A DNA stretch of 32,264 nt from a virus, in the IMG/VR virus record IMGVR_UViG_3300029199_000279, positions 1 to 32,264 of that record; one strand, given 5' to 3'. Each line of letters opens with the position of its first letter. Within the stretch, counting starts at the first letter, position 1. A program made the position numbers and the translations under genes. Positions 3,367-24,058 of this stretch are shown here, piece after piece. The notes under the pieces were generated by a model that was not told the origin of the DNA, did not search any database, and saw only the letters and a program-made list of their open reading frames with translations.

Positions 3367-3369
3367 TTT

Positions 3370-8023: not shown

Positions 8024-8560
8024 ATGACCAAGACCGATCACACCGAACTCCCCGCCATCGGCGCTCCGTTCGAGGGCGGATTCTACGCCGGAAAGTTCTT
8101 CGGCGCGGATGGCGCACCCTACGCATTGATCGTCGCGCCAAAAGCCGAAGGCGAAACCGAATGTGTTTTCAAGGCCAAGCGCACCGCCGACAAGGGCGCG
8201 CGCAGCCTGCGTGATGGCCTCGCCAACTCCGAGGCCATGAACGACGATAACCACCCCGCCGCCCGGTTCTGCCGCTCCCTGACCATCGGCGGCTTCGACG
8301 ACTGGTACCTGCCCAGCCGCCACGAGGCCGCGCTGCTGGCCGAGAACCTGATGCCCGGTAAGGACTATGTGCCGGAACAGACTGTGGCGGACGCCTTCAA
8401 GGAAGACGGGCCGGAAGCTTTCAGCCGCACGCTGTACTGGACCTCGACGGAGTTCTCGCCCGGCTCCGCCTGGGTCCAGTACTTCGACTTCGGCTACCAG
8501 TACGGCGGCGACAAGGCCTGGTCCCTCCGCGTCCGCGCCGTCCGCAAATACCCCCTTTAA
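8024..8560 (+). CDS. DGR1 target protein 1 (DUF1566, C-type-lectin-like fold)
   Basis: A 178-residue DUF1566-type protein. Family features are PAIGAPFEGGFYAG, the GGFDDWYLPSRHEAALL motif and the terminal YWTSTEF-W-SLRVRAVRK pattern. The last 30 residues are encoded by variable repeat VR1 (8461-8547), which matches the template repeat TR1 except at adenine positions. This puts hypervariable residues on the presumed ligand-binding face near the C-terminus. There is no signal peptide or transmembrane span, so it is cytoplasmic or virion-bound. A paralogue follows immediately. The ATG at 8024 is preferred over one at 8009 because GAAAGGG precedes it. Confidence 0.9.
   Translation: MTKTDHTELPAIGAPFEGGFYAGKFFGADGAPYALIVAPKAEGETECVFKAKRTADKGARSLRDGLANSEAMNDDNHPAARFCRSLTIGGFDDWYLPSRHEAALLAENLMPGKDYVPEQTVADAFKEDGPEAFSRTLYWTSTEFSPGSAWVQYFDFGYQYGGDKAWSLRVRAVRKYPL
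8461..8547 (+). repeat. DGR1 variable repeat VR1
   Basis: This 87-bp segment aligns without gaps to TR1 (9797-9883). All 11 differences lie at TR adenines, most in AAC codons changed to TAC, GAC, TTC or GGC. The 3' end, from TCCCTCCGCGTCC on, is identical to TR1 and would serve as the initiation-of-homing region. Confidence 0.95.
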
Positions 8561-8573
8561 CGCTTACCCATTT

Positions 8574-8596
8574 CCCAGGCCGCTGTGCGGCCTGGG
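8574..8596 (+). other. Post-VR1 hairpin/cruciform (DGR homing element)
   Basis: A perfect 10-bp stem, CCCAGGCCGC / GCGGCCTGGG, with a TGT loop. It starts 26 bases beyond the end of VR1, just after the target stop. The same distance separates VR2 from its hairpin, although the stem sequence there differs. Such hairpins downstream of the VR raise homing efficiency in the Bordetella phage DGR. A terminator role is less likely as no T-run follows. Confidence 0.85.
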
Positions 8597-8623
8597 GCAA
8601 CACCTGCAACCAGGAGAAAACCC

Positions 8624-9145
8624 ATGAACGACACTAAGATTCCCGCCATCGGCGAGCCTTTCGGCGGCGGCTTCTTCGCCGGGCTGTACTACGAAAACGG
8701 CATTCGTCACGCCCTGATCGTGGCCCCCAAGGCCGAGGGCCAAGCCGGCAGCCTGAAATGGGGCGAGCGCGGCGAGACGGGAGCCCGCTCGCTGATCGAC
8801 GGCCTCGCCAATACCCGCGCCCTTGGCGACGACCACCCCGCCGCCAAATTCTGCCGCGACCTGCGCATCGGCGGGTTCGACGACTGGCACCTGCCCGCAA
8901 TCGACCAGATGTCCGTCCTGCGCGCCAACCTCACGCCGGAAGACGATCACGTCCCCGCGCAAACCACCGCCGAGGCGTTCAAGGAGGGCGGCACCGAAGC
9001 CTTCGACATCAGCGAGTGGTACTGGACATCGACCGAATGGTCCGGCGGCTACGCCTGGGTCCAGGACTTCAGCTACGGCTACCAGACCACCAGCGTCAAG
9101 GACTGGTCCCTCCGCGTCCGCGCCATCCGCAAATGTCCGATTTAA
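8624..9145 (+). CDS. DGR1 target protein 2 (DUF1566, C-type-lectin-like fold)
   Basis: A 173-residue paralogue of the preceding protein, sharing PAIGEPFGGGFFAG, HALIVAPKAEG, GGFDDWHLPAIDQM and the WYWTSTEWSGGYAWVQ-SLRVRAIRK end. The C-terminal 30 residues come from VR2 (9045-9132). It lacks a signal peptide. A clear AGGAG ribosome-binding site precedes ATG 8624. Two tandem targets fed by one TR allow independent diversification of two related binding proteins, perhaps subunits of one complex. What they bind cannot be inferred. Avd1 follows 61 bases downstream. Confidence 0.9.
   Translation: MNDTKIPAIGEPFGGGFFAGLYYENGIRHALIVAPKAEGQAGSLKWGERGETGARSLIDGLANTRALGDDHPAAKFCRDLRIGGFDDWHLPAIDQMSVLRANLTPEDDHVPAQTTAEAFKEGGTEAFDISEWYWTSTEWSGGYAWVQDFSYGYQTTSVKDWSLRVRAIRKCPI
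9045..9132 (+). repeat. DGR1 variable repeat VR2
   Basis: This 88-bp segment aligns without gaps to TR1 (9796-9883). Of 10 differences, eight are at TR adenines. The other two are a T-to-A next to a mutated adenine and a G-to-A near the 3' end. Confidence 0.95.
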
Positions 9146-9158
9146 CCATTAACCAATT

Positions 9159-9182
9159 CCCCGACCGCTCCGGCGGTCGGGG
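9159..9182 (+). other. Post-VR2 hairpin/cruciform (DGR homing element)
   Basis: A perfect 10-bp stem, CCCCGACCGC / GCGGTCGGGG, with a TCCG loop. It starts 26 bases beyond VR2, exactly as for VR1. The stem differs in sequence from the VR1 hairpin yet keeps its length, position and pairing. Confidence 0.85.
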
Positions 9183-9206
9183 TGCTGCGGCCTAGGGAGG
9201 TTTCGC

Positions 9207-9557
9207 ATGGCGCGCGCCACTGATTTGCCGATTTACCGGGCGGCCTACGATCTGCTCAAGCTTCTGGCGAAGCTGACGCAGCAGTATCCGCGCGGCTATC
9301 GGCAAGGACTGGCGCGCGAGGTCTTTACCGAAGCCCAGGCGGTCGTGGTCGGAATCTTCCGCGCCAACTGCGCAGCCGACAAAGCGCCGATCCTGGAAAA
9401 TCTGCGAGAGCACCTGGAAACGCTCAAGCTGCTGCTTCGGCTCTCCAAGGACCTTCACCTGATCTCCCCCGGCCAATTCGGGGCCACGGTCGAACTCACC
9501 GACGCCATCGGTAAGCAGGCGTCGGGATGGATCAAATACGCAAGGAGTCGCGCCTGA
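9207..9557 (+). CDS. avd: Avd, DGR1 accessory variability protein
   Basis: A 116-residue, all-helical basic protein of the Avd / four-helix-bundle family (related to 23S rRNA intervening-sequence proteins). Typical features are LPIYRAAYDLLKLLAKLTQQ, an LREHLETLKLLLRLSKDLHL helix and the terminal IGKQASGWIKYARSR. In known DGRs, Avd forms a pentamer that binds the reverse transcriptase and TR RNA and is needed for cDNA synthesis. It lies between the target genes and TR1, the canonical order. AGGGAGG precedes the ATG at 9207. Confidence 0.93.
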   Translation: MARATDLPIYRAAYDLLKLLAKLTQQYPRGYRQGLAREVFTEAQAVVVGIFRANCAADKAPILENLREHLETLKLLLRLSKDLHLISPGQFGATVELTDAIGKQASGWIKYARSRA

Positions 9558-9883
9558 TGTCCGAAGGTCAAGGCTTTCGCGCCTGTGCGCATCATTTGGT
9601 CGGGGTAGCGTCGGCGAAGATGCCCACGGGCTTTGCCCGCAGATTTAATAATCTGCCGGTGAAACCGGCGGTGGCCGCCGCTCCAAGCGCTATGGTGGAT
9701 ACGGCGGGCCTGCTCCCCCGCGCGTCCCGGCGCGGCTTGGCTGGCGTCGATGCCGACCCGGCAATCGCCAGCCCGGCCTGTAAACCCCCGTCTGCGCGGC
9801 TACGCCTGGGTCCAGAACTTCAACAACGGCAACCAGTACAACAACGACAAGGACTGGTCCCTCCGCGTCCGCGCCGTCCGCAA
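9558..9883 (+). ncRNA. DGR1 template RNA with structured 5' region
   Basis: This region between avd and the reverse transcriptase has no convincing gene of its own and ends in TR1. It folds into a row of hairpins: GGGC/GCCC at 9628-9638, a 7-bp stem GCAGATT/AATCTGC with TAAT loop at 9639-9656, CCGGT/ACCGG at 9656-9668, GGCGG/CCGCC at 9667-9679, and a two-part stem at 9739-9773 (GGCTGGCG/CGCCAGCC outside, TGCCG/CGGCA inside). Neighbouring short hairpins share bases and may be alternative folds. It is probably the RNA recognised by Avd and RT for template-primed cDNA synthesis. Exact ends are unknown. Confidence 0.75.
9796..9883 (+). repeat. DGR1 template repeat TR1
   Basis: An 88-bp, AAC-rich template. 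Read in the target frame it gives GYAWVQNFNNGNQYNNDKDW followed by the SLRVRAVRK end. The AAC codons at the variable sites cannot mutate to stop codons by adenine changes. It is invariant relative to VR1 and VR2 outside adenines, apart from two VR2 positions. It ends only 12 bases before the RT start ATG. Confidence 0.96.
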
Positions 9884-9895
9884 GTGGAATGCGTC

Positions 9896-11017
9896 ATGCC
9901 ATCAGAGATCACCGTGGCCCAACTTTTCGAAGCCTACTACGACTGCCGCCGCTCCAAGCGAACCACGCGCGCCGCCTTGGCGTTCGAGGTGAACCTGGAG
10001 GAAAACCTTCTCACCCTACTGCATGAGCTTCGGACGGGCACGTGGCAGCCGTCGCCAGCGACGGTCTTCGCCATCACCAGGCCAAAGCCGCGCGAGGTCT
10101 GGGCCGCAGACTTCCGCGACCGCATCGTCCATCACCTCGTTTATCGCGCCATCGCGCCCCTGTTCGAACCGTCGTTTATCGCCGACTCATGCGCTTGCAT
10201 CCCCGGACGCGGCACCCTGTACGGGGCGGACAGGGTGCGCCGACACCTGTTGAGCGCCACCGAAAGCTGGACCAAGCCCGCCTTCGTGTTGAAGGCCGAC
10301 ATCGCCAACTTCTTCGGCTCCATCCGTCACGCCGATCTGTTCGCCATGCTGGCCCGCCGCGTCAAGGACCCGACCGTGCTGGACCTGTGCCGCAAGCTTG
10401 TCTTCCAGGACGTGCGCCAAGGCGCGATCCTGCGCGGTGCGGCCCATCACATGGCTTTGGTTCCGCGCCATAAGAGCCTCTTCCACGCGCCGCCCGGAAC
10501 GGGGCTGCCCATCGGCAACCTGTCCAGCCAGTTCTTCGCCAACGTCTATCTCGACGGCCTGGACCAGATGGTCAAGCGCCGCCTCCGCATGCGCCATTAC
10601 GTTCGCTATGTGGACGACATGGTGTTGGTCCACCCGGACCCGAAGACGCTGCTCCGCGCGGCGGACGCCATCCGGGAGCATCTAGCCGGGATCGGGTTGG
10701 CCTTGGCCGAGAGCAAGACCTTTGTCGCGCCCGCCGACCGGGGTGTGGATTTTGTCGGCCAGGTCATCCGCCCGCACAGAACGATAGGCCGCGCCAAGAC
10801 GCACAGGGCGGCCATGCACCGCCTTTCAGCAATGCCGAAGGAAGACATGGCGGAAAGCGTAAATTCCTACCTCGGCCTTTTCCGCCACACCGGCAGCCGC
10901 GCCCAGTGCGCCGCCATCGCGCGGCTCGCGCACCAGCGCGGGCTCAAGGTTTCCAAGGACCTGAACAAGGTCGCCATCAACACAGCTTTTTCAAAGAGAA
11001 GGAGGCAACGCCCATGA
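9896..11017 (+). CDS. DGR1 reverse transcriptase
   Basis: A 373-residue DGR-type reverse transcriptase. It opens with SEITVAQLFEAYYDCRRSKR, typical of DGR RTs. Catalytic motifs follow: KADIANFF (133-140, first Asp), GLPIGNLSSQ (203-212; SQ instead of the SP of retroviral and group II enzymes is a DGR mark) and YVDD (238-241). It copies TR1 RNA with adenine-specific errors and supplies cDNA to VR1 and VR2. The start ATG 9896 follows the TR at once; GTG 9884 is a possible alternative. The longer frame from 9527 would read through the template RNA and is not the protein. Its stop overlaps the exonuclease start (ATGA). Confidence 0.96.
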   Translation: MPSEITVAQLFEAYYDCRRSKRTTRAALAFEVNLEENLLTLLHELRTGTWQPSPATVFAITRPKPREVWAADFRDRIVHHLVYRAIAPLFEPSFIADSCACIPGRGTLYGADRVRRHLLSATESWTKPAFVLKADIANFFGSIRHADLFAMLARRVKDPTVLDLCRKLVFQDVRQGAILRGAAHHMALVPRHKSLFHAPPGTGLPIGNLSSQFFANVYLDGLDQMVKRRLRMRHYVRYVDDMVLVHPDPKTLLRAADAIREHLAGIGLALAESKTFVAPADRGVDFVGQVIRPHRTIGRAKTHRAAMHRLSAMPKEDMAESVNSYLGLFRHTGSRAQCAAIARLAHQRGLKVSKDLNKVAINTAFSKRRRQRP

Positions 11018-11631
11018 CCGTGATCGGACGCGCCGCGAACCACATTATGATCGACCTGGAGACCATCGGCACCCGGCCCGGCTCCGCGATCCTCACCATC
11101 GGGGCCGTGCGCTTCGACCCTGCCTCCAACGGCTTGGATGGTTGCGATCCGCTGGCGCTGCCCAACGAGACGGCCTTCTACCGGCGTATCGACCGTGATA
11201 GCTGCGCCCGCCTCGGCCTGACCGAGGACGCGGACACCCTGTCCTGGTGGTCCCGCCAGGCCCTGGAAGCCCGCCGCGAAGCGTTTGACGCCACGCCACG
11301 GCACGATATCGCCGAGGTGATGGCCGAGTTCGCCCGCTGGTGCGGGCGCGATCCATTCCCCTGGAGTCATGGAGCATCCTTCGACGTGGTGTTGTGCGAG
11401 GTTGTCTTTGAGCGGCTGGGCGTGCGCGCGCCATGGAAGTTCTGGAACGTCCGCGACACTAGGACCCTCTACGCCTTCATGGGCGAAAAGCCGATCCGTG
11501 ACCGCAACCACCATCACGCGCTGTGCGACGCAGCGGCCCAGGCCGCCGCCGTCCAGCGGGCCTATCGCCGCCAGAAGAACAACCATGACCCGGCGGACAC
11601 AGATCGCCACCGGCGTCGGAACATTTCGTAG
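11014..11631 (+). CDS. 3'-5' exonuclease (DnaQ-like fold)
   Basis: A 205-residue nuclease of the DEDD superfamily. The N-terminal MIDLETIGTRPGSAILTIGA gives the D-x-E pair, SHGASFDVVLCEVV gives the second Asp, and HHHALCDAAAQA gives the His/Asp of motif III (DEDDh type). It resembles phage exonuclease VIII-type or DUF5051-type 3'-5' exonucleases. It is translationally coupled to the DGR1 reverse transcriptase (ATGA overlap at 11014-11017), with GAGAAGGAGG upstream. It may trim DNA ends in recombination. Involvement in DGR cDNA processing is suggested only by position. Confidence 0.88.
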   Translation: MTVIGRAANHIMIDLETIGTRPGSAILTIGAVRFDPASNGLDGCDPLALPNETAFYRRIDRDSCARLGLTEDADTLSWWSRQALEARREAFDATPRHDIAEVMAEFARWCGRDPFPWSHGASFDVVLCEVVFERLGVRAPWKFWNVRDTRTLYAFMGEKPIRDRNHHHALCDAAAQAAAVQRAYRRQKNNHDPADTDRHRRRNIS

Positions 11632-11642
11632 GGGGGGCGGCC

Positions 11643-12020
11643 ATGGACATCTCCACCCTCCCGGCCTTGAGCATCCGCCAGCCCTGGTGCCACTACATCC
11701 TGAACGCTGGCAAGGATGTCGAAAACCGTACCTGGCCCACCCGCTTTCGCGGCCCCGTCCTGATCCACGCAGGAAAGACGCCGGAGGACGCGGCCTACTG
11801 CCGCCGGATCGGCGCACCGCTTGGCGGCATCGTCGGCGTGATGGAGATCGTGGACTGTGTGACCGCGTCCTCCAGCGAATGGTTCTGCGGCCCCTACGGT
11901 TTCGTGATCGCGAACGCCCGCCCGCTCCCGTTCATCCCCTGCCGTGGCGCGCTCGGCTTCTTCAAGCCCGACCTGACCGCCGCTGCCCCGCAACTGTTCC
12001 AGGAGGCCCCTTATGCTTGA
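11643..12020 (+). CDS. ASCH/PUA-like domain protein
   Basis: A 125-residue protein with ASCH-domain signatures: LPALSIRQPWCHYILNAGKD at the start, then VENRTWPTRFRGPVLIHAGK, and later a LGGIVGVMEIVDCV strand and GPYGFVIANARPL. ASCH domains have a PUA-like fold and bind nucleic acid or modified bases. In phages they are common in the early region. It overlaps the next gene by eight bases. A second ASCH-like gene lies at 12360. Ligand and function are unknown. Confidence 0.85.
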   Translation: MDISTLPALSIRQPWCHYILNAGKDVENRTWPTRFRGPVLIHAGKTPEDAAYCRRIGAPLGGIVGVMEIVDCVTASSSEWFCGPYGFVIANARPLPFIPCRGALGFFKPDLTAAAPQLFQEAPYA

Positions 12021-12354
12021 GGACGCCCGAACCGAAACCGACGCCGCCCCGATCCGCCCCAAGGGCATCCCGCCGCGCCCGGTGAGCTTCTGCCGCGAAT
12101 GCGGCCACCCTTACTGGCCGCGCCGCGACGACCAGGAATATTGCTCGTCCACCTGCCGCTCCAAGTACCACAAGCGGCGCTACGAGCGCGGCGCGCAGTT
12201 GTACGACTTCGCCATGGAGTGGCGCGGAAAGCGCCTCAAGGGCGGCTTCACCAGGCTCTGCCAGATCATCGACGAATGGCTCCGCGACGAGCGCGAGCGC
12301 CGCCGGGCGAACCGCAAGGTGCGCGACGCCTGGTTGAAGGAAAAGAAAGGATAA
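12013..12354 (+). CDS. Zinc-ribbon protein with basic tail
   Basis: A 113-residue protein with a four-cysteine zinc ribbon at residues about 27-49 (FCRECGHPYWPRRDDQEYCS, then SCTCR-like STCRSKYHKRRY). The rest is strongly basic and helical, ending in DERERRRANRKVRDAWLKEK. This suggests a small nucleic-acid-binding protein. No specific family is assigned. It is wedged between two ASCH-like genes, overlapping the first by eight bases. Confidence 0.75.
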   Translation: MLEDARTETDAAPIRPKGIPPRPVSFCRECGHPYWPRRDDQEYCSSTCRSKYHKRRYERGAQLYDFAMEWRGKRLKGGFTRLCQIIDEWLRDERERRRANRKVRDAWLKEKKG

Positions 12355-12359
12355 ACGCC

Positions 12360-12746
12360 ATGCCCGCCTTCGGTTTCAAGGAACGATTCGCCAAGCCCAT
12401 CGAACAGGGAATCAAGCGCCAGACCATCCGCGCCGAGCGCAAGGATGGCCGCCAGCCCTGCAGGCCGGGCGACACCCTAACGCTTTGGACCAACTGGCGC
12501 AGGAAGAACGCGCGCAAGCTGGCCGACGTTCGCTGCACCTTCTGCTCGCCCATCGTGATCGACGGGACGGATGCCGGGCCGACCGTCACCATCCGGGGCC
12601 GGGCGCTCACGCCCCATGAGATCGAGGAACTGGCCTTCGACGACGCCTTCCTCTCGGTCGGCGACTTCCTGGCCTTCTTCCGGGACACCCACGGCCTGCC
12701 GTTCAAGGGCTGGGTCATCAAGTGGGAGGCGACCCATGGGCGATAA
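12360..12746 (+). CDS. ASCH-like domain protein
   Basis: A 128-residue protein. MPAFGFKERFAKPIEQGIKR, followed by QTIRAERKDGRQPCRPGDTL, matches the start of ASCH-like phage proteins in which a basic groove binds nucleic acid. The middle ARKLADVRCTFCSPIVIDG supplies the next strands, and it ends with HGLPFKGWVIKWEATHGR. It overlaps the DUF5131 gene by 11 bases. It is probably a nucleic-acid-binding early protein working with its neighbours. Specificity is unknown. Confidence 0.8.
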   Translation: MPAFGFKERFAKPIEQGIKRQTIRAERKDGRQPCRPGDTLTLWTNWRRKNARKLADVRCTFCSPIVIDGTDAGPTVTIRGRALTPHEIEELAFDDAFLSVGDFLAFFRDTHGLPFKGWVIKWEATHGR

Positions 12747-13617: not shown

Positions 13618-13777
13618 GAACGGCCCTCGCCCGCAGGATTCAGAGACCCGCTCGCAAAACGAAGGTTTTCGTGTAATGTCAAGCGATGCCCGCGAGGAAG
13701 TCCTGGCCTTCGCCCGCGCCTTGGCGCGCCAGGCGGTCGCGGAGTATCTGGACGGAAGCCAGTCGGAACAGCGATGA
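13610..13777 (+). CDS. Small protein upstream of the recombinase
   Basis: A 55-residue protein if started at ATG 13610 (GGGGGG just upstream), or 33 residues if started at ATG 13676 (GAAGG upstream). The C-terminal part, REEVLAFARALARQAVAEYL, is a single amphipathic helix. It overlaps the recombinase start by ATGA (13774-13777), so translation is coupled. Small helical proteins in this place may act with serine recombinases, for example as directionality factors, but no homology supports that here. Confidence 0.6.
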   Translation: MDKNGPRPQDSETRSQNEGFRVMSSDAREEVLAFARALARQAVAEYLDGSQSEQR

Positions 13778-15426
13778 CAAGGTACGCGATCTATGCCCGG
13801 TATTCCTCGGATCGTCAGTCGGAACGCTCGATTGACGACCAGGTCCGGCTGTGCCGGGAGAAGATCGCCCAGGACGGCGGCCATATCGCCGACACCTACA
13901 CCGACTATGCCATAAGCGGCGGCTCGACCTTGAATCGCCCCGGCCTGCAGGCGCTCATGAACGACGCGACGCGGGGCCGGTTCGACGTGGTGTTTGCTGA
14001 GGCCCTCGACCGAATCTCCCGCGACCAGGAGGATATAGCCGCCGTCTACAAGCGGCTCCGCCATCAGGGCGTGACGATGTTTACCCTGGCCGAGGGAGAG
14101 ATCAATGAGCTTCACATCGGCCTCAAGGGCACCATGAACGCCCTGTTCCTCAAGGACTTGGCGCAGAAGACCCGGCGCGGGCAGCGCGGGCGGGTTGAGG
14201 CCGGATACTCTGCGGGCGGCATCACCTACGGATATGACATGGTGCGCGAACTCGATCCGGCTGGCGAGCTTGTGCGCGGCAAGCGGGCCGTGAATCCGGA
14301 ACAGGCCGACGTGGTGCGACGCATCTTCCAGGAGTACGTCTCCGGCAAAAGTCCGCGCGGCATCGCCGCCGACCTGAATCGTGAGGGCATCCCAAGCCCG
14401 CGCGGCGGCCAATGGAACGCATCGACCATCAACGGCAACAAGGCGCGTCGCAACGGCATCCTGCACAACGAGATATACATCGGATTCCTGATCTATAACC
14501 GCCAGCGCTTCATGAAGGACCCGGATACCGGCAAGCGTGTCGCTAGGCCGAACCCGCGCGATCAGTGGGTGGTGGTGGAGGTTCCGGCGCTGCGCATCAT
14601 CGACGACGAGACGTGGGAGCGCGCCCAGGGGTTAAAGGCGCGGCTCCGTCCGGAATCGCGCGCGACGACGCACCGAAACCGGCGGCCCAAGCGCCTGCTG
14701 TCCGGCCTGTTGACCTGCGGATGCTGCGGCAACGGCGTGACCATTGTCCGCCCCGACAGGTACGGATGCTCGGCATACCGCGAAAAAGGCGTCTGCGACA
14801 ACGCCAACACCATCACGGCCAGTGTTCTGGAAGATCGTGTCCTCGGCGGCCTGCGGGACCATCTTCTGGCCCCCGACGCCGTGGCGGAGTTCATCAAGGA
14901 GTTTCACGCCGAACTACAACGGCGGCGCAAGGACGAGGCCAAGCGGCGCACGGACGCCGAGCGCAAGCTGCGCGAGGTGGAGGGCCGGATCGACCGCATC
15001 GTGAATGCCATAGCGAATGGCACGGACTCGCCGTCCATGCACACGCTACTGCTCGATCTGGAAAAGAGGAAGGTGGAGTTGGCTAGGGACTTGGCCGAGA
15101 TCGAGGACCCGCGCGTCCTGGAAATCCACCCGAACCTCGCCGAGGTGTACAGGCGGAAAATCTCGAACCTTGAGGACGCCTTGAGGAAGGAAGGCGATGC
15201 CCGCCAGCAGGCCATGGCCATGCTGCGGACCCTGGTCGACCGAATCGTCCTCTATCCTGGCGACAAGCGCGGCAAGATGGAAATCGAAATCCAAGGGGAA
15301 CTGGCCGCCATCCTCCGTTTTGCGAATGGCGATCCAGTCCCTCTGGAAAAAAGTATGTTAAAGTTGGTTGCGGGGGCACGCTTCGGACATAAACATACTT
15401 CCCCGCGCTATGCGCTAAGCCTTTGA
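13774..15426 (+). CDS. Large serine recombinase (phage integrase)
   Basis: A 550-residue large serine recombinase. The catalytic domain starts RYAIYARYSSDRQSERSIDD, with the nucleophilic serine in the YSSD motif, and continues with YTDYAISGGSTLNRPGLQ and the DVVFAEALDRISRDQEDIA region. A recombinase domain with GYDMVRELDPAGELVRG and FQEYVSGKSPRGIA follows. A zinc ribbon (LLTCGCCGNGVTIV... YREKGVCDN) and a C-terminal coiled coil (residues about 375-440) complete the family layout. It should catalyse integration between attP and attB. No att site could be identified. Phage genes continue on both sides of it. Confidence 0.95.
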   Translation: MTRYAIYARYSSDRQSERSIDDQVRLCREKIAQDGGHIADTYTDYAISGGSTLNRPGLQALMNDATRGRFDVVFAEALDRISRDQEDIAAVYKRLRHQGVTMFTLAEGEINELHIGLKGTMNALFLKDLAQKTRRGQRGRVEAGYSAGGITYGYDMVRELDPAGELVRGKRAVNPEQADVVRRIFQEYVSGKSPRGIAADLNREGIPSPRGGQWNASTINGNKARRNGILHNEIYIGFLIYNRQRFMKDPDTGKRVARPNPRDQWVVVEVPALRIIDDETWERAQGLKARLRPESRATTHRNRRPKRLLSGLLTCGCCGNGVTIVRPDRYGCSAYREKGVCDNANTITASVLEDRVLGGLRDHLLAPDAVAEFIKEFHAELQRRRKDEAKRRTDAERKLREVEGRIDRIVNAIANGTDSPSMHTLLLDLEKRKVELARDLAEIEDPRVLEIHPNLAEVYRRKISNLEDALRKEGDARQQAMAMLRTLVDRIVLYPGDKRGKMEIEIQGELAAILRFANGDPVPLEKSMLKLVAGARFGHKHTSPRYALSL

Positions 15427-15436
15427 TATAAAGGCT
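15418..15436. terminator. Convergent hairpin between recombinase and lysis module
   Basis: AGCCTTT / AAAGGCT, a 7-bp stem with a GATAT loop, spans the stop codons of the two convergent genes. It would end the stem with A/T pairs in either direction, as in some bidirectional terminators, but the T-run is short. Confidence 0.5.
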
Positions 15437-15923: not shown

Positions 15924-15924
15924 G

Positions 15925-16470
15925 TCAGCGCCCCTTCATGGAAGGCGGCGCGAAGGCGCGGTCGCCGAACCACCAGGTCACCGCCGTGCTGGCCGCGAAA
16001 GCCATGGAATAGATTACATAGCGGAGGACCTCTTTTACCTCGGCCTCGGCCAGGACAGCACCCAGGATCGACTGGTTGGTGCCGAGCCCATCGAGCAGGT
16101 CCCGGAACATCACATAGACCAGCGCCACCAGCCCCGCCGTCAGAACGGGCCGGAACAGCGCCCGCACGTCGTTGACCCAAGTGTGCACGCTGCCCGTGAG
16201 CTTGGCGTCCGCGCGCTGCGAGGCCCCGAGGCCGTCCCACGCGCCTTGCTGCGAGACGATGGCAAGCTCCTGCTCGGTCTCCGCCGCGCGGGCCTGCATC
16301 TGCAATTCCAGCATGCGGGTCTCGTGGCCCCACTTCTTTTCTTCCCAGGCTTGGCGCTGGCGCTCCTGCAGCCATTTCGCGCCGACGCCGACGATGCTGC
16401 CCAGCAGGCCGAAAATGCCGCCGGACGCCACGGAGGCCACGCCCCCGAGAAGGTCTCCGAGAAACTCCAT
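15925..16470 (-). CDS. Membrane protein with coiled coil, possible holin-like
   Basis: A 181-residue protein. A glycine-rich hydrophobic N-terminus (LGGVASVASGGIFGLLGSIV) is followed by a charged helical coiled coil (residues 33-75, RQRQAWEEKKWGHETRMLEL) and two probable transmembrane helices (RPVLTAGLVALVYVMF and VIYSMAFAASTAVTWWFG). The WVNDVRALFRPVLTAGL stretch resembles that in phage three-span holin-like proteins. Together with the neighbouring endopeptidase and holin genes, a lysis role is likely. The start overlaps the preceding stop by one base (TGATG). Confidence 0.75.
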   Translation of the reverse strand: MEFLGDLLGGVASVASGGIFGLLGSIVGVGAKWLQERQRQAWEEKKWGHETRMLELQMQARAAETEQELAIVSQQGAWDGLGASQRADAKLTGSVHTWVNDVRALFRPVLTAGLVALVYVMFRDLLDGLGTNQSILGAVLAEAEVKEVLRYVIYSMAFAASTAVTWWFGDRAFAPPSMKGR

Positions 16471-17074: not shown

Positions 17075-17076
17075 GG

Positions 17077-17412
17077 TCACTTTCCTTTCTTGGATTCCGG
17101 CACGTACCGCTCGATCACCTTGGCCAGCAAAACCTCGATGCCGCGCGGGCCGAGCCAGCCGACGACGCCCACCACCGCGTGGCTGGCCATCGGGTCGAGG
17201 CCCATGTACGACGCCAGGCCGCCGCCCGTGATCGCGCAGAACACGGCGGCGGGAACCTCCCACCAGAGTTCACGGCCCCAGAAATGGCGCTGCCCCATCC
17301 GGACCAGCCGGTTATGCCAAAGCACCCGCGCCAGCACGGCGGTCGGGAAAAACCCAGCCGCGCCGAGCGCCGCCTGCTGGATTTCCGGTGGAAGTTTGTC
17401 GAACAAGGCCAT
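17077..17412 (-). CDS. Phage holin, LydA-like
   Basis: A 111-residue inner-membrane protein resembling the LydA holin family. It starts MALFDKLPPEIQQAALGAAG and has hydrophobic segments near residues 15-30, 50-65 and 72-88 (HAVVGVVGWLGPRGIEVLLA is the best-matching stretch), ending in a basic tail ESKKGK. It would open the inner membrane to release the M15 endolysin encoded just downstream. ATG 17412 has AGGAAGGGGGG upstream. It is the first gene of the lysis operon after the terminator at 17432-17464. Confidence 0.8.
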   Translation of the reverse strand: MALFDKLPPEIQQAALGAAGFFPTAVLARVLWHNRLVRMGQRHFWGRELWWEVPAAVFCAITGGGLASYMGLDPMASHAVVGVVGWLGPRGIEVLLAKVIERYVPESKKGK

Positions 17413-17431
17413 TCCCCCCTTCCTCTCGAAC

Positions 17432-17464
17432 AAAAAAACAGCCGCCCTCCGGCGGAAGGGCGGC
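17432..17464 (-). terminator. Rho-independent terminator after tail tip gene
   Basis: On the minus strand GCCGCCCT / AGGGCGGC form an 8-bp stem (17441-17464) followed by a run of seven T. It ends the tail operon before the lysis genes. Confidence 0.88.
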
Positions 17465-17502
17465 AAAACGTCAAACGCGGGACGTTGAATGGCCCGTGAG
17501 GC

Positions 17503-19881
17503 TTAATTCACGTGGACCCGGCTATCCTCGGCCACGGCGGTAATCTCGACCTGCTCGCCGCCGTTCCTCGGCTTCACGGCGAGGGTCCGGCAAAGCTGGG
17601 ACCATTTCACCCCAGGACCGAACGTGAAATACGTCCGTTCCTCGGCGCTGCCCACGTATGGCGTCATCGTCAGCGCCTCCAGCAGGTGGACCTCGTCCGC
17701 CGCCGTCCCGGCCTCGCATTGATACGGCCCGGCCAGCGAGCCGTCCCGCTTGCGCAGCGCGATGTAGTGCGTCTCGCCCGCCGTCCATTCCAGCGGCTCG
17801 GACAGCGTGAGCACCTCCGCCTCGTCGTCCCAGTCCACCACCTCGCCGCCCTGGCCCCAGCGCGGCATGTCGTGGGTGACCGCGATCAGATCGCCGTAGG
17901 TCGGGATCATGCCCTCCAGTTCCGTCCGGAAGGTCACCATCTTGCGCCGATAGCGGTTGTCGGCGGCCATGTAGTCGCCCTCTCGGGTGGCGTGCGCCAG
18001 CGTGACGCAGCCGAACAGGCTCACTGTGGCGGGCTTCTCTGCAGCGGAATCGGCAAGCTTCACCGTCACCTCGGCGGGCTTCCAGGTCCGCTCGTTGAAG
18101 TACTCGACGATCACAGCGTCCGCCGTGTCGTCGGACGGCATGACATAGGCGACCTTGAACGAACCCTTCACGATGTTGCGCGGGCCGAACATGGCCACCG
18201 GAAGGCTCTGCGGCCCGTCGCGCACCACGCGCACGATGCCGCCCTGCAGGATCGGCACGGCGCGCCCACACCGCGCGATGCGCGTCAGCGCGTCCCACAC
18301 CGTGGTCTTGGTATCGAACACGCCATCGAAGGTATCCCCTCGCGCCGCCAGTGTGGCGTCCAGCGCGGCCAGGTCGGCCAGCGGCAGCCGCGCGTCCGTC
18401 AGTTGCGCCCCATACTCCGCCTTCGCCACGTCGCAGGCCGCCCATACCAGGCTCCGCGTCGCCTGCGGCGCGGACCACGTTTGCGTTCCCGCGTCCCAGA
18501 CCGGCAGCTTGCGGGTCTGGATCACGTTCACCGCGCGAGCCGTCCGCTGCGACAGGTTGTCCGTCGCCCGCATTTTGACCAGCAGCAGCGTCACGTCGGC
18601 GAACGTCTCCGGCCCGTCCACGAATGCCTTGAGGCCCGACCAGCGGATTTCATGGCCCGCCCGCGACGAGGTGTCCTTGGCGTCCGTCCGGCGCAGCCGC
18701 ACCTCGTATCGCCCCGCCACCGGCAGGGTGTACTTGTACGAAAGCCGGATCGCCGTGTTCGTGGACGCCGTGTGGCTTTCGGACGCCAGCGTCGACCAGG
18801 TCCCGGCCCCCACGGGCAGGTCGTCGTCGTCGATCTCGCGCGCCTCCACCACCCAGGTGATGGTCTTGGAATCCAGCCCGCCCGCGTCGTTGGCGTAATA
18901 GAGTCCGCGCGGAAACACGATATCCACCCCGGCCTCGTTGGCCGTGGTGTCCACCGGGTTGAGCGTGAACGGCCCCACATAGCCGTCGCCGGTCTGCTCG
19001 TTGGTGCCTTTCAGTTCCTGGCCGGACACCTCGGGCCGGGTGATGACGTTCACGTCGAACAGCGTGATCGCGCCGCCGGGCGGCACCACCTCGTAGGTGA
19101 TTTCCTCGAAATTGGCGATGTCGGTCTCGGCGATCCGGATGCGCTCGATGTCGTACTCGCCCAGGCCGAGGCAGTGAGGCTGGTACAGATACTGCTCGTT
19201 GCCGATGTACTCCGCCCATGGCTCGGCCATGATCAGGTCCGGGAACACCCGGTGCCTGCCGTACTGCGCCGGGATGGCCTGCCCCAGCCGCGCGCTATTG
19301 CCTTGCCCCTGCAGGCTGTAGGTCGGCGATGGCGCTGGCAGAGATCCGAAGTTGCTGGAAAACGCGGCGGCGGACGGCTTCGGCGGCGGGATCAGCGCGT
19401 TGAGAAGCGCGCCCCCCGCCATGGATACGATGCCGCCAACGACGCCACCGAAAATCTTGGCCGTGAGCATCTGGCTCGCCGTAAGCGGTCCCATGGCCCC
19501 GCCCATCAGGACGGAATCGGCGAACCACCCGGCGGCCACGCCGCCCACATACGCCCCGGCCACCATGATGGCGATGGACAGAACCGTCTTCAGCGGATTC
19601 TTGCCGCCGCCCCCTCCGCCGCCGCCATGCGGCAGCGCGACGAAGGCGCAGATGTCGCCAGGGCGGATCACGGTCGTGTCCCAATCCGCGCGCATCAGCG
19701 CCGCGCCGTTGAACAGGCAGACGGTCGGCACCGCGAACTCGTCGATGCCCTGCGCGTCCAGCCAGCCACGCACGGTCATGGCGTGCGGAACGGGCCGGAC
19801 GGCCCGGTCGCGCTCCGGCATGAAGGCGTTCGCTACATGGACGACAACACCGGGGCGATCCATTACTTGTACGGCGCTCAT
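17503..19881 (-). CDS. Tail tip attachment protein J (host specificity protein)
   Basis: A 792-residue tail tip protein of the lambda J type. The N-terminal ubiquitin-like part (PTVCLFNGAALMRADWDTTV, then IRPGDICAFVALP) is followed by a poly-glycine stretch and hydrophobic segment (LSIAIMVAGAYVGGVAAGW), as in TipJ homologues. The central region has the SARLGQAIPAQYGRHRVFPD motif and the REVR-like beta domains. It forms the distal tail tip that contacts the host surface. It is shorter than lambda J (1132 residues), lacking much of the C-terminal receptor-binding part, consistent with a separate receptor-binding protein (the DGR2 target). It overlaps the upstream gene by four bases. Confidence 0.92.
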   Translation of the reverse strand: MSAVQVMDRPGVVVHVANAFMPERDRAVRPVPHAMTVRGWLDAQGIDEFAVPTVCLFNGAALMRADWDTTVIRPGDICAFVALPHGGGGGGGGKNPLKTVLSIAIMVAGAYVGGVAAGWFADSVLMGGAMGPLTASQMLTAKIFGGVVGGIVSMAGGALLNALIPPPKPSAAAFSSNFGSLPAPSPTYSLQGQGNSARLGQAIPAQYGRHRVFPDLIMAEPWAEYIGNEQYLYQPHCLGLGEYDIERIRIAETDIANFEEITYEVVPPGGAITLFDVNVITRPEVSGQELKGTNEQTGDGYVGPFTLNPVDTTANEAGVDIVFPRGLYYANDAGGLDSKTITWVVEAREIDDDDLPVGAGTWSTLASESHTASTNTAIRLSYKYTLPVAGRYEVRLRRTDAKDTSSRAGHEIRWSGLKAFVDGPETFADVTLLLVKMRATDNLSQRTARAVNVIQTRKLPVWDAGTQTWSAPQATRSLVWAACDVAKAEYGAQLTDARLPLADLAALDATLAARGDTFDGVFDTKTTVWDALTRIARCGRAVPILQGGIVRVVRDGPQSLPVAMFGPRNIVKGSFKVAYVMPSDDTADAVIVEYFNERTWKPAEVTVKLADSAAEKPATVSLFGCVTLAHATREGDYMAADNRYRRKMVTFRTELEGMIPTYGDLIAVTHDMPRWGQGGEVVDWDDEAEVLTLSEPLEWTAGETHYIALRKRDGSLAGPYQCEAGTAADEVHLLEALTMTPYVGSAEERTYFTFGPGVKWSQLCRTLAVKPRNGGEQVEITAVAEDSRVHVN

Positions 19882-20294
19882 TCCGCGTCACCCTTGAAAC
19901 GATAAAACCCTTCGATCTTCCAGCCGTTCAGCACGAGCGCGTCAGGCCGCTGGAACACCACGCCGGAATCCCGCGAGCAGTGCAGGACGCCCCCTCGACC
20001 GCCATTGGCGTCCACGTCCAACCAGACGCCGACGTGCACCGGATAGCGCGCCTGGCGCAGCAGGACGCAATCCCCGTCTGCCGCCTCGCCTACCAGGTCC
20101 CAGCGGCGGCGCTCCGGGTGGTCGCGAAACGCACGGGCCAGCGACAGCAGGTCCTCCGGGTTTGGGATTTCCGGCAAGGGGCGCATGAAGTGCTCGGCCT
20201 GGATATGGCGGACGAACGCCCAGCAATGGAACGAGTCCGGCCCTTCGCCCTGCGCGCTCCACGGCAGCCCGATATACTGCGATGCCCAGTGCAT
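19878..20294 (-). CDS. NlpC/P60 tail peptidoglycan hydrolase
   Basis: A 138-residue NlpC/P60-type cysteine peptidase. The catalytic cysteine is in GPDSFHCWAFVRHIQ (around residue 24) and the catalytic histidine in YPVHVGVWLD. It ends LEGFYRFKG-like. Tail-associated enzymes of this type, equivalent to lambda gpK, locally open peptidoglycan during DNA entry. It sits between DUF1833 and J as in other siphoviruses. Its stop and the J start share ATGA. Confidence 0.88.
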   Translation of the reverse strand: MHWASQYIGLPWSAQGEGPDSFHCWAFVRHIQAEHFMRPLPEIPNPEDLLSLARAFRDHPERRRWDLVGEAADGDCVLLRQARYPVHVGVWLDVDANGGRGGVLHCSRDSGVVFQRPDALVLNGWKIEGFYRFKGDAE

Positions 20295-20317
20295 CCCTAT
20301 TTCCTTTTGTGTAAGCG

Positions 20318-20372
20318 TTTATCGCAAATCCCGAGCAACCCGTTCCGGGTTGCGACGACGCATTTGCGTAAA
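20318..20372. repeat. Nested inverted repeat in the tail operon
   Basis: The inner arms GCAACCCG / CGGGTTGC (20335-20353, TTC loop) are perfect over 8 bp. The outer arms TTTATCGCAAAT / ATTTGCGTAAA (20318-20329 and 20362-20372) pair over 11 bp with one bulged T. It fills the 101-base gap between DUF1833 and the NlpC/P60 gene. As RNA it would be a long two-part stem, while as DNA it is a strong dyad. Role unknown. Confidence 0.75.
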
Positions 20373-20395
20373 ATCAACAGCTTCCTGTGGCCGCG

Positions 20396-21004
20396 CTACC
20401 GCGCGAGGCCGGGGAAGTCCTTGGCCGTGTAGAACTTGGCCGGAAACGCCTTGTTGCCGATGTCCAGCATCCGCGCCCTTCCCGTCACGTGCATGGGGTT
20501 GGCCTCCACCTCGGACATCACCATGGTGATCGGCGGGTCCATCTGCGGCCCTTCGATGTCGGTCGACAGATAGGGCCGATAGGTGACCTCGATCTTGTCT
20601 TGCGACACCGCCGCCTCGTCCAGCGCGTCCGTGATCTCGCGGCCCACGTTGTCCATGGTGACCGTGATTTCCGGCACCGGCACCGTATCGACTGGCGGCA
20701 GGTCCAGGTCGAAGGCGAGCGCGATGAACGGCACCATCTGCCCGGCATCTTCCGGTGCGTCCGCCTCAAGGCGGGCCACCAAACCGACCAGATCCCGGTC
20801 CTCCGGGTCCATGGCGTCCAGGACCGCCTGCACCTCCGCGCCGCCGAGCGCCACCCAGCTTTCCTCGTCGGCGAAGTTTCGCACGACGCGGATCGGATGG
20901 GTGAACGTCGGGTGGCGGATTTCCAGGGTGTGCAGGATAACCACGTCGGACGGAGCCGCCGCGTATGCCTCCTGTATCGCCGCCGACAGCGCCGGATCAG
21001 GCAT
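20396..21004 (-). CDS. DUF1833 tail protein
   Basis: A 202-residue DUF1833-type phage protein. The N-terminus LSAAIQEAYAAAPSDVVILH leads to TLEIRHPTFTHPIRVVRNFA, the most recognisable part of the family, and the C-terminus ends in NKAFPAKFYTAKDFPGLAR. Its position before the NlpC/P60 hydrolase and J gene corresponds to lambda minor tail protein L, so it probably belongs to the tail tip. It overlaps the 84-residue gene upstream by eight bases. The DGR2 cassette lies directly upstream. Confidence 0.88.
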   Translation of the reverse strand: MPDPALSAAIQEAYAAAPSDVVILHTLEIRHPTFTHPIRVVRNFADEESWVALGGAEVQAVLDAMDPEDRDLVGLVARLEADAPEDAGQMVPFIALAFDLDLPPVDTVPVPEITVTMDNVGREITDALDEAAVSQDKIEVTYRPYLSTDIEGPQMDPPITMVMSEVEANPMHVTGRARMLDIGNKAFPAKFYTAKDFPGLAR

Positions 21005-21251
21005 GGTTCAGAACCTCGGTCTTGGTGAGCCCGTAGCGCTCGATCACCGTCAGGTCCTCGACATCCTGCCAGTCGGGCGCGACGTAGCCCGTATCGCCCG
21101 GCTGCAGCGTGTTGTCGTAGTCCTCGGGGTACGCGGCCATGTCCACGCGCCGCGTGAGCGTGCCTTTCAGGTACGCCATGAACTCGTCGTACTCGGGCGT
21201 GCCCGCCAGCGCGTCCAGGTCCTCGCGGGTGTTGATGGGCTTGCGGTTCAT
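20997..21251 (-). CDS. 84-residue protein coupled to the DGR2 reverse transcriptase
   Basis: An 84-residue acidic protein, with REDLDALAGTPEYDEFMAYL near the N-terminus and a C-terminal VEDLTVIERYGLTKTEVLNH. No family is recognised. Its start overlaps the RT stop by four bases (ATGA) and its stop overlaps DUF1833, so it is cotranslated with both. It could be a tail protein whose gene was originally next to the fibre gene before DGR2 inserted, or a DGR accessory factor. Composition does not decide. Confidence 0.75.
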   Translation of the reverse strand: MNRKPINTREDLDALAGTPEYDEFMAYLKGTLTRRVDMAAYPEDYDNTLQPGDTGYVAPDWQDVEDLTVIERYGLTKTEVLNHA

Positions 21252-22228
21252 CGATCTGCCTCCTTCAGGCTGGTTAACAGGTTGTGGGTATCCGCCCATT
21301 GGGCGTGTCCGCGCCAACTGGCCAGGAAGCGGTCCAGCTTCTCCCGGTTGCCGTTGGCCGAATACTTTCTGATCTTGCGTTTCGCCCGCACCACGCTTTG
21401 GCGGCGCAGCAGCTTGTGTGTGGGCCAGATGCGATAACCTAGGAAGTTGAGCCCCCGCGTCGCCGGGGCGACCGACCACTTGGAAAACCGCAGACCCAGC
21501 GCCTCGTCGATAAATGCCTCCGCATCGTCCTTCAGCGCCCGCAGGTCCGCCGCCGAATGGCCGAACACCACCGTGTCGTCCATGTAGCGCACGAACGTCC
21601 GCCACCCCAGGTCCAGCAGGAAGCGGTCGAAGGCCGTGGCGTACACGTTGGCCCACAACTGGCTGGTCAGGCTGCCGATGGGCAGGCCGCGACCCTCCGG
21701 CGGTGTGATGGCCTCGATCAACGCCAACGTCGCCCGGCAACTGATCTTCTTGCGGACCATGACGTTCAGCCGCGCCCGGTCGATGCTGTGGAAGTACCCG
21801 GCGAAGTCCATCTTCAGGTAATAGACCGGCCCTTCCTTCCCCAGCGACCGCATCAGCGCCTGTGCCCGCACCGCGCCCGCGTGCGTTCCCCGGCCCGTCC
21901 GGCAGGCATACGACATGGGCACGAAGGTGCGCTCAAAGATGGGCTCGATCACGTTCACCAGCGCGTGCTGCGCTAGGCGGTCGCGGAACGGCAGCGCCAT
22001 GATCTCGCGCGGCTTCGGGTCGCGCACCATGAACCGGCGGTATTCACCGGGGCGGTACGTCCCCGCCGCGATCTCTTGTTGCAGCATCCACAGGTTCGCT
22101 TCGGCGTACTCCTTGAACTCCAGGTATCCGAACGTGTACCGCTTGCCTCGCGCCGTCTGGCGATAGGCGCTGCGCATGTTTTCGTCCGCCAGCACCAGTG
22201 GCATCAGGTTGCGATGTTTTCTGCCCAC
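21248..22228 (-). CDS. DGR2 reverse transcriptase
   Basis: A 326-residue DGR-type reverse transcriptase. N-terminal GRKHRNLMPLVLADENMRSA and YRQTARGKR are typical of this class. Motifs are LKMDFAGYFHSI (first Asp about 141), GLPIGSLTSQ (181-190, the DGR-type SQ) and YMDD (215-218). The C-terminus has the GLNFLGYRIWPTHKLLR thumb-proximal segment. The GTG at 22228 is preferred: GGAG lies eight bases upstream and the extra residues fit the family, whereas an ATG nine codons later would lose them. A longer frame from 22423 reads through the template and is not used. Only distantly similar to the DGR1 enzyme. Confidence 0.95.
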   Translation of the reverse strand: MGRKHRNLMPLVLADENMRSAYRQTARGKRYTFGYLEFKEYAEANLWMLQQEIAAGTYRPGEYRRFMVRDPKPREIMALPFRDRLAQHALVNVIEPIFERTFVPMSYACRTGRGTHAGAVRAQALMRSLGKEGPVYYLKMDFAGYFHSIDRARLNVMVRKKISCRATLALIEAITPPEGRGLPIGSLTSQLWANVYATAFDRFLLDLGWRTFVRYMDDTVVFGHSAADLRALKDDAEAFIDEALGLRFSKWSVAPATRGLNFLGYRIWPTHKLLRRQSVVRAKRKIRKYSANGNREKLDRFLASWRGHAQWADTHNLLTSLKEADR

Positions 22229-22509
22229 GATGTCGGCTCCGGCTTTCGATGTTTCGCTACTCGCCGCTCGACCGAACCCCGAAATGTGTTCGCCGTGGCA
22301 GGGTGGGGAAGCTGACCACCTGTAAGGGTGTGTCGGCTCCGGCGGCCTTGACCGACCGAACGCCTGGAAACGATGGTCACAGCGGCCCCGCGCCCCGATG
22401 TTGTTGTTCGAGTTCGAGGGCACGTTGTTCCAGTTCGCGGAGCGGGAACCGGAGTTCGACGTGTTGCTCCAGTTGCCGCCGAATTGGGCCGCGTCTTTTG
22501 TGCCCTTCC
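22229..22509 (-). ncRNA. DGR2 template RNA region (TR2 plus downstream spacer)
   Basis: Between avd2 and RT2, the minus-strand transcript carries TR2 (22494-22374) followed by a 145-base spacer up to the RT start. Spacers of similar size after the TR in Bordetella phage DGR are needed for cDNA synthesis. No gene is seen in the spacer. Ends of the RNA are not defined. Confidence 0.7.
22374..22494 (-). repeat. DGR2 template repeat TR2
   Basis: A 121-bp repeat with the same sequence as 22932-23052 apart from 12 positions. In the target frame it encodes asparagine-rich FGGNWSNTSNSGSRSANWNN, then VPSNSNNNIGARGRCD. Eleven of the 12 differences fall at coding-strand adenines; the exception is TCC to GCC. 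AAC codons mark the variable sites. Confidence 0.96.
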
Positions 22510-22842
22510 CTACCCCTTGCGCCTCCCCGACCTGATCCAGGCGTTCAGCATCCCGCCGACCTCCGCCAGGTGCACCTGCGCCACCCGGTGTTGGTTCTGC
22601 GAGATCAGCTTCCGCTTTGGATCGGCCAGGAAGCGCAACCAGAATCGCAAGGACGCCAGACCGGCGTCCGCCGCGTAAAGACGCGACGGCTGGCCCGACT
22701 TCCCCGCGACGATGAACAAATCCACCTGCGCGAACATCGCCCGCAGGAAGGCGTCCCGCGCCACCCCGTGCTTTCGCGCGATGTTCTGTGCGATGGGGTA
22801 CATGTAGTTCACGAACCCCTCGTACTTTTCGACGATGGCCAT
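22510..22842 (-). CDS. avd: Avd, DGR2 accessory variability protein
   Basis: A 110-residue all-helical basic protein of the Avd family. It has EKYEGFVNYMYPIAQNIARK, a central ASLRFWLRFLADPKRKLIS helix and the C-terminal VAQVHLAEVGGMLNAWIRSG that matches the family end. It should assemble with RT2 and TR2 RNA. It lies between the tail-fibre VR and TR2, in canonical DGR order. The ATG at 22842 is the best start, though its ribosome-binding site is weak; GAGGAAG lies 17 bases upstream. Little similarity to the DGR1 Avd beyond the fold. Confidence 0.88.
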   Translation of the reverse strand: MAIVEKYEGFVNYMYPIAQNIARKHGVARDAFLRAMFAQVDLFIVAGKSGQPSRLYAADAGLASLRFWLRFLADPKRKLISQNQHRVAQVHLAEVGGMLNAWIRSGRRKG

Positions 22843-22894
22843 CTGCCGCGCGCTGATTACTTCCTCGCGCGCCACCCCTTGTTGCGGCGGATCA

Positions 22895-22917
22895 AGGGGT
22901 CCGCTTTCGCGGCCCCT
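22895..22917 (-). other. Post-VR hairpin/cruciform of DGR2
   Basis: On the minus strand AGGGG-CCGC / GCGG-A-CCCCT with a GAAA loop: nine base pairs with one bulged A. It begins 14 bases beyond the VR and overlaps the fibre stop codon. Same type of element as the DGR1 hairpins. Confidence 0.75.
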
Positions 22918-24058
22918 AGACAAGTCGCAGGTGGTCACAGCGGCCCCGCGCCCCGATGCTGCTGCCCGAGCTCGAGGGCACGAGGTTCCAGCGCGCGGAG
23001 CGGGAACCGGCGTTCGACGTGTTGCCCCAGTCGCCGCCGAATTGGGCCGCGTTGGGCTGGTTGTAGTAGCTGCCGCGCCCTTCCGTGCTGGCCGACCAGG
23101 TCGCCCCGCTGTCCGGGCCGCCCAGCATCGCGCCCCATTGCCACATGACGCCGGTCGCCTGCTCGACACCCCACTTCGAGACGTAACCGGCGTTGTGCTG
23201 AACCGTGATCTGGTCCGCGCCGATGGACTGCGCCTCCGTCACGCCATAGGCCGCCGCCGCGAACTCGTCGTAGGTCAGCAGCCCCTTGCCGTGGTCCGAC
23301 ATGACCTCGGCGGCCTCGTACCACGTCAGCGATCCGTAATCCGCCGTGCCGTCGCCGCCGAAGCCCAGCGCCACCTTGGGCGGGCTTGTTCCGTCCGCGA
23401 TGGTGGCCCCGTTCTTCGACGTGCCGTCCGTGTGGTGGTTCACGCCCAGCAGGTAGATGTCGCACCAGAACTTGCCAGCGACCAGCGCCATGCCGCGCGG
23501 GTCGGCGCATTCGGGCCGCCACTTCAGGTCCCACAGGCTGTACTCGTTGATGTTTGGCGTCGAATCCACGTTCAGGTTCGACAGCGCATAGTGGAAGCCG
23601 CCGATCTGCCGCGAGGTGCTCGCCGTGTACCCGCTGGGGGCCGAGAAGTTGGCGTCGGCGCGCACGCTGCCGTCGTCGCAGACATAGATGGCGTAATCCG
23701 TCCCCGCCGTCAGCGCGGGCATCGTTACCGCCGTATCCACCGAAAAATCGTGGACGACGCCATTCAATTCCACCTTGGTCCCGGCCTTCAGACTGACGGT
23801 GCCCGCGCCGGTCTTGGTGAAGGCGACCGAGTCCGCATCGGCCTTGCCGAACAGCATGTAAGCCGCCGACGCCGACGTGCCCTCGATCATCAGGTCCCAG
23901 TACGTGCCGTTGCTCGGGTCCACCCCGGCGGCGGCATCCTGGATGCAGATATAGACGTTGTTGTTGTAGCGGCAGGTGTCGAACTTCTCGTAAGCCTGCG
24001 CGCCGTTGTAATCGCCTTTCCAGGAATAGACGATTTTCCCAAGATCGATGGTCGGCAT
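22916..24058 (-). CDS. DGR2 target: tail fibre / receptor-binding protein with hypervariable C-type-lectin fold
   Basis: A 380-residue protein. The N-terminus (MPTIDLGKIVYSWKGDYNGA... YEKFDTCRYNNNVYIC) is a carbohydrate-binding-like module common in phage tail proteins. A C-terminal C-type-lectin/FGE-type domain (from about residue 170: SLWDLKWRPECADPRGMALV ... LTWYEAAEVMSDHGKGLLTY) ends in the VR-coded stretch (22932-23052). It should be the receptor-binding tip protein whose binding face is varied by DGR2, like Mtd in Bordetella phage BPP-1. Its start overlaps the upstream gene by ATGA. The last residues, after VR, are HLRLV. Confidence 0.9.
   Translation of the reverse strand: MPTIDLGKIVYSWKGDYNGAQAYEKFDTCRYNNNVYICIQDAAAGVDPSNGTYWDLMIEGTSASAAYMLFGKADADSVAFTKTGAGTVSLKAGTKVELNGVVHDFSVDTAVTMPALTAGTDYAIYVCDDGSVRADANFSAPSGYTASTSRQIGGFHYALSNLNVDSTPNINEYSLWDLKWRPECADPRGMALVAGKFWCDIYLLGVNHHTDGTSKNGATIADGTSPPKVALGFGGDGTADYGSLTWYEAAEVMSDHGKGLLTYDEFAAAAYGVTEAQSIGADQITVQHNAGYVSKWGVEQATGVMWQWGAMLGGPDSGATWSASTEGRGSYYNQPNAAQFGGDWGNTSNAGSRSARWNLVPSSSGSSIGARGRCDHLRLV
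22932..23052 (-). repeat. DGR2 variable repeat
   Basis: The 121-bp C-terminal coding segment of the fibre gene, aligned without gaps to TR2 at a constant offset of 558 bases. Amino-acid changes from TR are Asn to Asp, Arg, Leu, Ser and Gly, plus Ser to Gly and Ser to Ala. The final 24 or so bases before the stop side (encoding GARGRCD) are unchanged and likely serve as the homing initiation site. Confidence 0.95.

Follow-up and report, generated by a model that had tools for sequence, protein, structure and literature searches.

Two complete, unrelated DGRs with opposite guide-RNA layouts in the early and late operons of one phage contig

The IMG/VR phage contig IMGVR_UViG_3300029199_000279 (hereafter the window, i.e., the whole stretch of 32,264 bases analysed) lacks its ends at both sides and, judged from its genes, reads as a temperate siphophage. 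The plus-strand early operon comprises a CI-like repressor, SSB, a first DGR (DGR1), an exonuclease, and a serine integrase, and the minus-strand late operon, which converges with it, carries the tape measure, a second DGR (DGR2), minor tail genes, a gpJ-like tip protein, and an endolysin. The genes and sites defining this layout are as follows:

3098..3313, minus strand: Cro-like HTH gene, divergent from CI (HTH_3; start read from sequence)
3353..3423: three palindromes resembling repressor operators, at 3353, 3376, and 3410, within the cro-CI region (motif count)
3408..4202, plus strand: CI-like repressor, HTH and S24 peptidase (Pfam; PHROG transcriptional repressor)
4557..4593: two further operator-like palindromes, with TTGACA, ahead of the plus-strand operon to DGR1 (motif count)
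7505..7999, plus strand: SSB, early marker gene adjoining DGR1 (PF00436, 3.3e-36)
13774..15426, plus strand: serine integrase, end of the early operon (PF07508, PF00239; phrog_95 integrase)
20396..21004, minus strand: minor tail gene after DGR2 (phrog_396)
25093..27804, minus strand: tape measure protein, which sets DGR2 in the tail operon (PF20155)

DGR1 is complete and occupies positions 8024–11017 of the plus strand, where the two lectin-fold targets are followed by Avd, TR, and RT:

8024..8560, plus strand: VP1a, stand-alone lectin-fold (Lcl_C) target of DGR1 (PF07603; predicted structure resembles the Lcl C-terminal domain 8q4e)
8461..8547, plus strand: VRa of DGR1 (11/11 mismatches on TR adenines)
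8574..8596, plus strand: 10-bp hairpin 3' of VRa (stem scan; no counterpart after TR1)
8624..9145, plus strand: VP1b, second lectin-fold target of DGR1 (PF07603, Lcl_C)
9046..9132, plus strand: VRb of DGR1 (8/10 mismatches on TR adenines)
9159..9182, plus strand: 10-bp hairpin 3' of VRb (stem scan)
9207..9557, plus strand: Avd1 (PF22296 bAvd; phrog_3206 Avd of DGR)
9548..9798, plus strand: RT-15 RNA (RF03018), structured 5' leader (Rfam, E 4.7e-15, 72.6 bits, gathering score 82)
9797..9883, plus strand: TR1 (TR/VR alignment)
9896..11017, plus strand: RT1 (RVT_1; phrog_1423)

Comparison of TR1 with VRa revealed 11 differences, all of them at TR adenines (p 2.5e-8), and comparison with VRb revealed ten, eight of which fell on TR adenines (p 1.7e-4); the changed codons were mostly AAC codons of the TR. 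RT1, which starts 13 nt past the end of TR1 (a gap of 12 nt), is of the DGR type based on its GxxxSQ motif (GLPIGNLSSQ), its match to phrog_1423 (6e-107), and its grouping with DGR RTs in a tree. The 10-bp hairpin located after each VR, and absent after the TR, was detected in the same pattern in three related loci (L003, L004, and L014). Both VRs sit at the C-terminus of their lectin-fold targets. Searching solved structures with the VP1a sequence resulted in no match, and only a fold search with its predicted structure (mean pLDDT 83.5) gave one, the single significant hit being the C-terminal domain of Legionella Lcl (8q4e, E 3.3e-4); the N-terminus of VP1a showed no hydrophobic signal-like stretch. 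Two or three copies of VP1-like lectin proteins were also seen in Pseudomonas phages Aurca01, Medea1, PMBT3, U7, and U9, which are not among the best RT1 matches listed; VP1-like proteins may exist without a DGR.

DGR2 is likewise complete, extends on the minus strand from 24058 to 21248, and is of the BPP-1 type, consisting of an Mtd-like target, Avd, TR, and RT:

22916..24058, minus strand: VP2, Mtd-like tail target (PF21916, 3.9e-27; 57% to Mtd)
22932..23052, minus strand: VR2 (11/12 mismatches on TR adenines)
22896..22916, minus strand: imperfect GAAA-loop hairpin after VR2, GGGGCCGC-GAAA-GCGGACCCC, with a one-base bulge (read from sequence)
22510..22842, minus strand: Avd2 (PF22296, 2.4e-30; phrog_3206)
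22374..22494, minus strand: TR2 (TR/VR alignment)
22232..22363, minus strand: Phage_DGR RNA (RF03022), structured spacer 3' of TR2 and ahead of RT2 (Rfam, 85.4 bits; gathering score 50)
21248..22228, minus strand: RT2 (RVT_1; 54% to BPP-1 Brt; GTG start at about 22228, taken from an RT alignment)

TR2 and VR2 differed at 12 positions, 11 of them TR adenines (p 1.7e-7), RT2 carries the DGR-type GxxxSQ motif (GLPIGSLTSQ), and VP2 matched Mtd structures at 1.5e-113. The system resembles that of Bordetella phage BPP-1 (mtd-avd-TR-brt) in gene order, in its Mtd-like target (57%) and its RT (54% identity), in the RNA family found 3' of the TR (RF03022), and in the GAAA hairpin that follows the VR. 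Our perfect-stem scan overlooked the hairpin of VR2; after the VRs of L089, a metagenome phage described below, the same scan found none. Unlike in BPP-1, DGR2 is part of a siphophage tail operon with tape measure and gpJ, and the genome holds an unrelated second DGR. Its neighbours are a minor tail gene on one side and a tail-fibre-like gene on the other, in agreement with the sequence-only reading, which had assigned it to the late tail operon. The closest tail relative, a 6.4-kb record (L291), displays about 82% nucleotide identity to the window through gpJ and two minor tail genes, but the match breaks off at about 21022 of the window, where DGR2 has its downstream edge. Beyond this point (L291 1–1241, versus window 21022–24058) a glycine-rich tail-fibre-like gene was identified, with no RT and no DGR. 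Since another tail-fibre gene takes the DGR2 slot, the Mtd/Avd/TR/RT block looks like a swappable receptor-binding cassette. In another record (IMGVR_UViG_2811995291_000003, L101), positions 8607–10153 encode an Mtd-like target and Avd, with an RT match of 51 residues only and no RVT_1, a possible DGR remnant.

In regard to control, palindromes of the repressor type (GAGCGATATTGCTC) were detected 11 times in the window, where 2.2 +/- 1.7 would be expected. Their presence at CI and ahead of the operon fits the earlier suggestion that DGR1, together with SSB and other early genes, lies downstream of a CI-controlled promoter. The five operator-like palindromes (three in the cro-CI region, two ahead of the DGR1 operon) support repressor control, and the DGR1 operon is probably repressor-controlled; a sigma-70 promoter scan of positions 3000–12000 called no promoter, including at 4557–4593. 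DGR1 and DGR2 are predicted to be separately timed.

The two differ in their guide RNAs. The RT-15 match, scoring just below the gathering score, starts where avd1 ends and reaches just into TR1, while the Phage_DGR RNA lies 3' of TR2, so that the difference in TR architecture claimed beforehand was confirmed. No BPP-1-type 3' spacer RNA was found between TR1 and RT1, where only the 12-nt gap remains, RT-15 being located 5' instead. RT-15 was present in 19 of 19 further RT1-family loci, in four close relatives, and in all five annotated RT1-family phages. Of 20 further RT2-family loci, 19 had Phage_DGR, the exception (L113) beginning at the RT itself; no crossover of the two RNAs between the families was detected among the further loci scanned. 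RT-15 scored 60–78 bits, under the Rfam gathering score of 82, in the clade to which the window belongs (window, L003, L004, L006, and L014), and 98–188 bits in other RT1-family members. The distance from TR end to RT start ranged from about 6 to 51 nt in RT1-family loci, leaving aside the longer one of L014, which arises from a truncated RT match, and had a median of 152 nt in RT2-family loci. Adenine-biased TR/VR pairs were found in 81 of 86 RT1-family and 75 of 88 RT2-family loci. RF03018 was seen in the window and 30 related loci. Generally, one DGR lineage appears to have RT-15 as the 5' leader of its template RNA; our literature search, mainly of open-access papers, found no paper tying RT-15 to DGRs.

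In five annotated temperate phages, the RT1-family DGR was located in the lysogeny/recombination arm, away from tail genes, among neighbours that included an integrase and, for example, genes for SSB, exonuclease, RecT, or methyltransferase. Where viral records of this family had a tyrosine integrase, it was found within about 7 kb of the RT in 22 of 25 cases, one of which qualifies only if the record is circular. Similar early-arm DGRs are present in Burkholderia phage Magia and Pseudomonas phages Haboob and Cruim01, which share with DGR1 an RT of about 47–50% identity, RT-15, Avd, small lectin-fold targets, and a site between CI and integrase, but have a single DGR per record. Members of the DGR1 family, usually located near the integrase, have small stand-alone lectin proteins as targets.

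A scan for RVT_1 in 188 viral records that have an RT relative identified three with two RTs (L089, L160, and L091). The metagenome phages L089 and L160 revealed the same two kinds paired, with complete TR/VR sets, RT-15 located 5' of the RT1-type TR and Phage_DGR 3' of the RT2-type TR. Both have an early arm with an integrase and an Mtd-like tail gene, L089 also RecT-like, RecE-like, and SSB genes; their late genes differ, with a 2,791-aa late protein in L089 and a tape measure protein in L160. In the RT phylogeny, which contained DGR RTs, the window, L089, and L160 were placed apart within both RT families, and one clade of the three was rejected (p-AU 1e-58 and 2e-67), excluding a single inherited dual cassette. 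Since the trees reject a common clade, the pairing of RT1-type and RT2-type is independent and, as far as can be judged from these phylogenies, arose at least three separate times. The third record, L091 (IMGVR_UViG_3300038704_000019), is an 84-kb phage with a DGR2-type and a third kind of DGR, the latter with a very divergent RT (13826–14866, minus strand), TR at 14979–15103, and VR at 16038–16162.

Among 50,697 annotated phages, RT1 matches were obtained in 144 and RT2 matches in 153, and no record harbored a second RT location. Dual-DGR phages had been supposed to be rarely if ever described: their rarity held (3/188 and 0/50,697), whereas L089, L160, and L091 show that the window is not unique. 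A search of mainly open-access literature, in which absence is not proof, turned up no phage described as having two complete DGRs. Two DGR RTs per genome are known from Trichodesmium erythraeum (PMC8867640) and Bacteroides sp. 1_1_14 (PMC3521204), though these are cellular genomes and not phages. Among 30 bacterial genomes carrying RT2 relatives, a close relative of RT1 was present in just one, where it lay on another contig. RT2-type and RT1-type DGR RTs were seen in one bin, on different contigs (L202 and L282), in the Gallionellales MAG G134.

Altogether, the proposal of two unrelated DGRs in one phage, one early and one late, was borne out, as was each of its anatomical points that was tested, and we favor the following reading, to which we assign a probability of about 0.7: one temperate phage carries two independently acquired complete DGRs with probably unshared templates, DGR2 being BPP-1-like and acting on a tail receptor protein, and DGR1 being guided by RT-15 and acting on early lectin-fold proteins. 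If both are currently active, RT and Avd of DGR2 would copy TR2 with errors at adenines, as in Bordetella phage BPP-1, recruited by the structured RNA 3' of TR2, and the resulting cDNA would rewrite the C-terminal lectin domain of the tail-encoded Mtd-like receptor-binding protein VP2, so that progeny would vary in host attachment. DGR1 would use the same chemistry, probably with recruitment by the different structured RNA 5' of TR1, RT-15, and would rewrite two small soluble lectin-fold proteins encoded, together with SSB and integrase, in an early operon that is probably under repressor control. Both proteins most likely have their role inside or at the surface of the infected cell or lysogen, e.g., versus variable host or rival-phage factors, and not as a tail fibre. 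A broader form is put forward tentatively, as somewhat doubtful: a distinct early-arm DGR lineage with a 5' RT-15 leader may hypermutate small non-virion intracellular lectin proteins, in some phages beside a BPP-1-type tail DGR that would be non-interchangeable and separately timed with it.

Both DGRs could instead serve host attachment, VP1a and VP1b being accessory virion or adhesin proteins that add receptor diversity. A virion role is conceivable because some phage tail fibres likewise end in Lcl_C (Lcl_C/DUF1566) domains, and a large survey found viral DGR targets to be tail proteins for the most part (PMC8144416). However, VP1a and VP1b, of 173–178 aa, contain neither a fibre nor a virion-attachment part, and DGRs of the RT1 family lie consistently in the early/integrase arm and not near tail genes, so that we regard this explanation as rather unlikely. 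A further alternative is that either RT/Avd uses either TR, the DGRs being partly redundant. Both are DGRs with related proteins, RT1 and RT2 being 33% identical and Avd1 and Avd2 27% over 88 residues, values which at the same time agree with the sequence-only reading that they are distinct. That reading had also found no recognizable similarity between the TRs, and indeed their local alignment score of 19 lay within the range obtained with shuffled sequences (mean 14.9, maximum 23). As the RNA families differ and their opposite layouts make non-interchangeable templates more likely, such cross-talk is improbable, and it is predicted that neither RT/Avd uses the other's TR.

Even less probable is that one DGR of the pair is a decaying remnant, to which the non-adenine differences in VRb (two) and VR2 (one) might point: RTs, Avds, and TRs are intact in both, VRa has no non-adenine difference, and relatives of both kinds displayed change almost only at adenines. 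That the record, an uncultivated-virus contig, joins two phages whose DGRs never shared one genome is hardly credible, since GC is 65–68% along the whole window, tetranucleotide use agrees between early and late part (r 0.87, versus <=0.83 for either part with eight other phage loci), the convergence of the operons after the integrase is the usual temperate-phage layout, and the same pairing of kinds occurs in two further contigs from other metagenomes; the check for assembly from different genomes thus did not favor a chimera.

Another of the closest known systems is that of Quimbyviridae gut phages, in which a non-structural gene is diversified by a single RT (PMC8008677). There, too, diversification reaches one protein of the tail module and another that does not belong to the structural module, but through one RT with two targets, while the window harbors two separate RT/Avd/TR sets. 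The parts are ordinary and their combination is unusual; the strongest new points are the opposite guide-RNA layouts of the two DGRs, a split consistent across both RT families, and the repeated independent pairing. RT-15, an Rfam RNA that so far was just a name, gains a context as leader of a DGR template, and because its guide RNAs have opposite layouts, the window's pair lends itself naturally to testing how the RT of a DGR selects its own template. Phage DGRs are mostly understood as tail-fibre diversifiers, and a DGR of a second lineage in an early operon raises the question of what else hypermutation brings to a phage; if the broader proposal is true, the lectins of early-arm DGRs might be directed, e.g., against host defences or rival phages.
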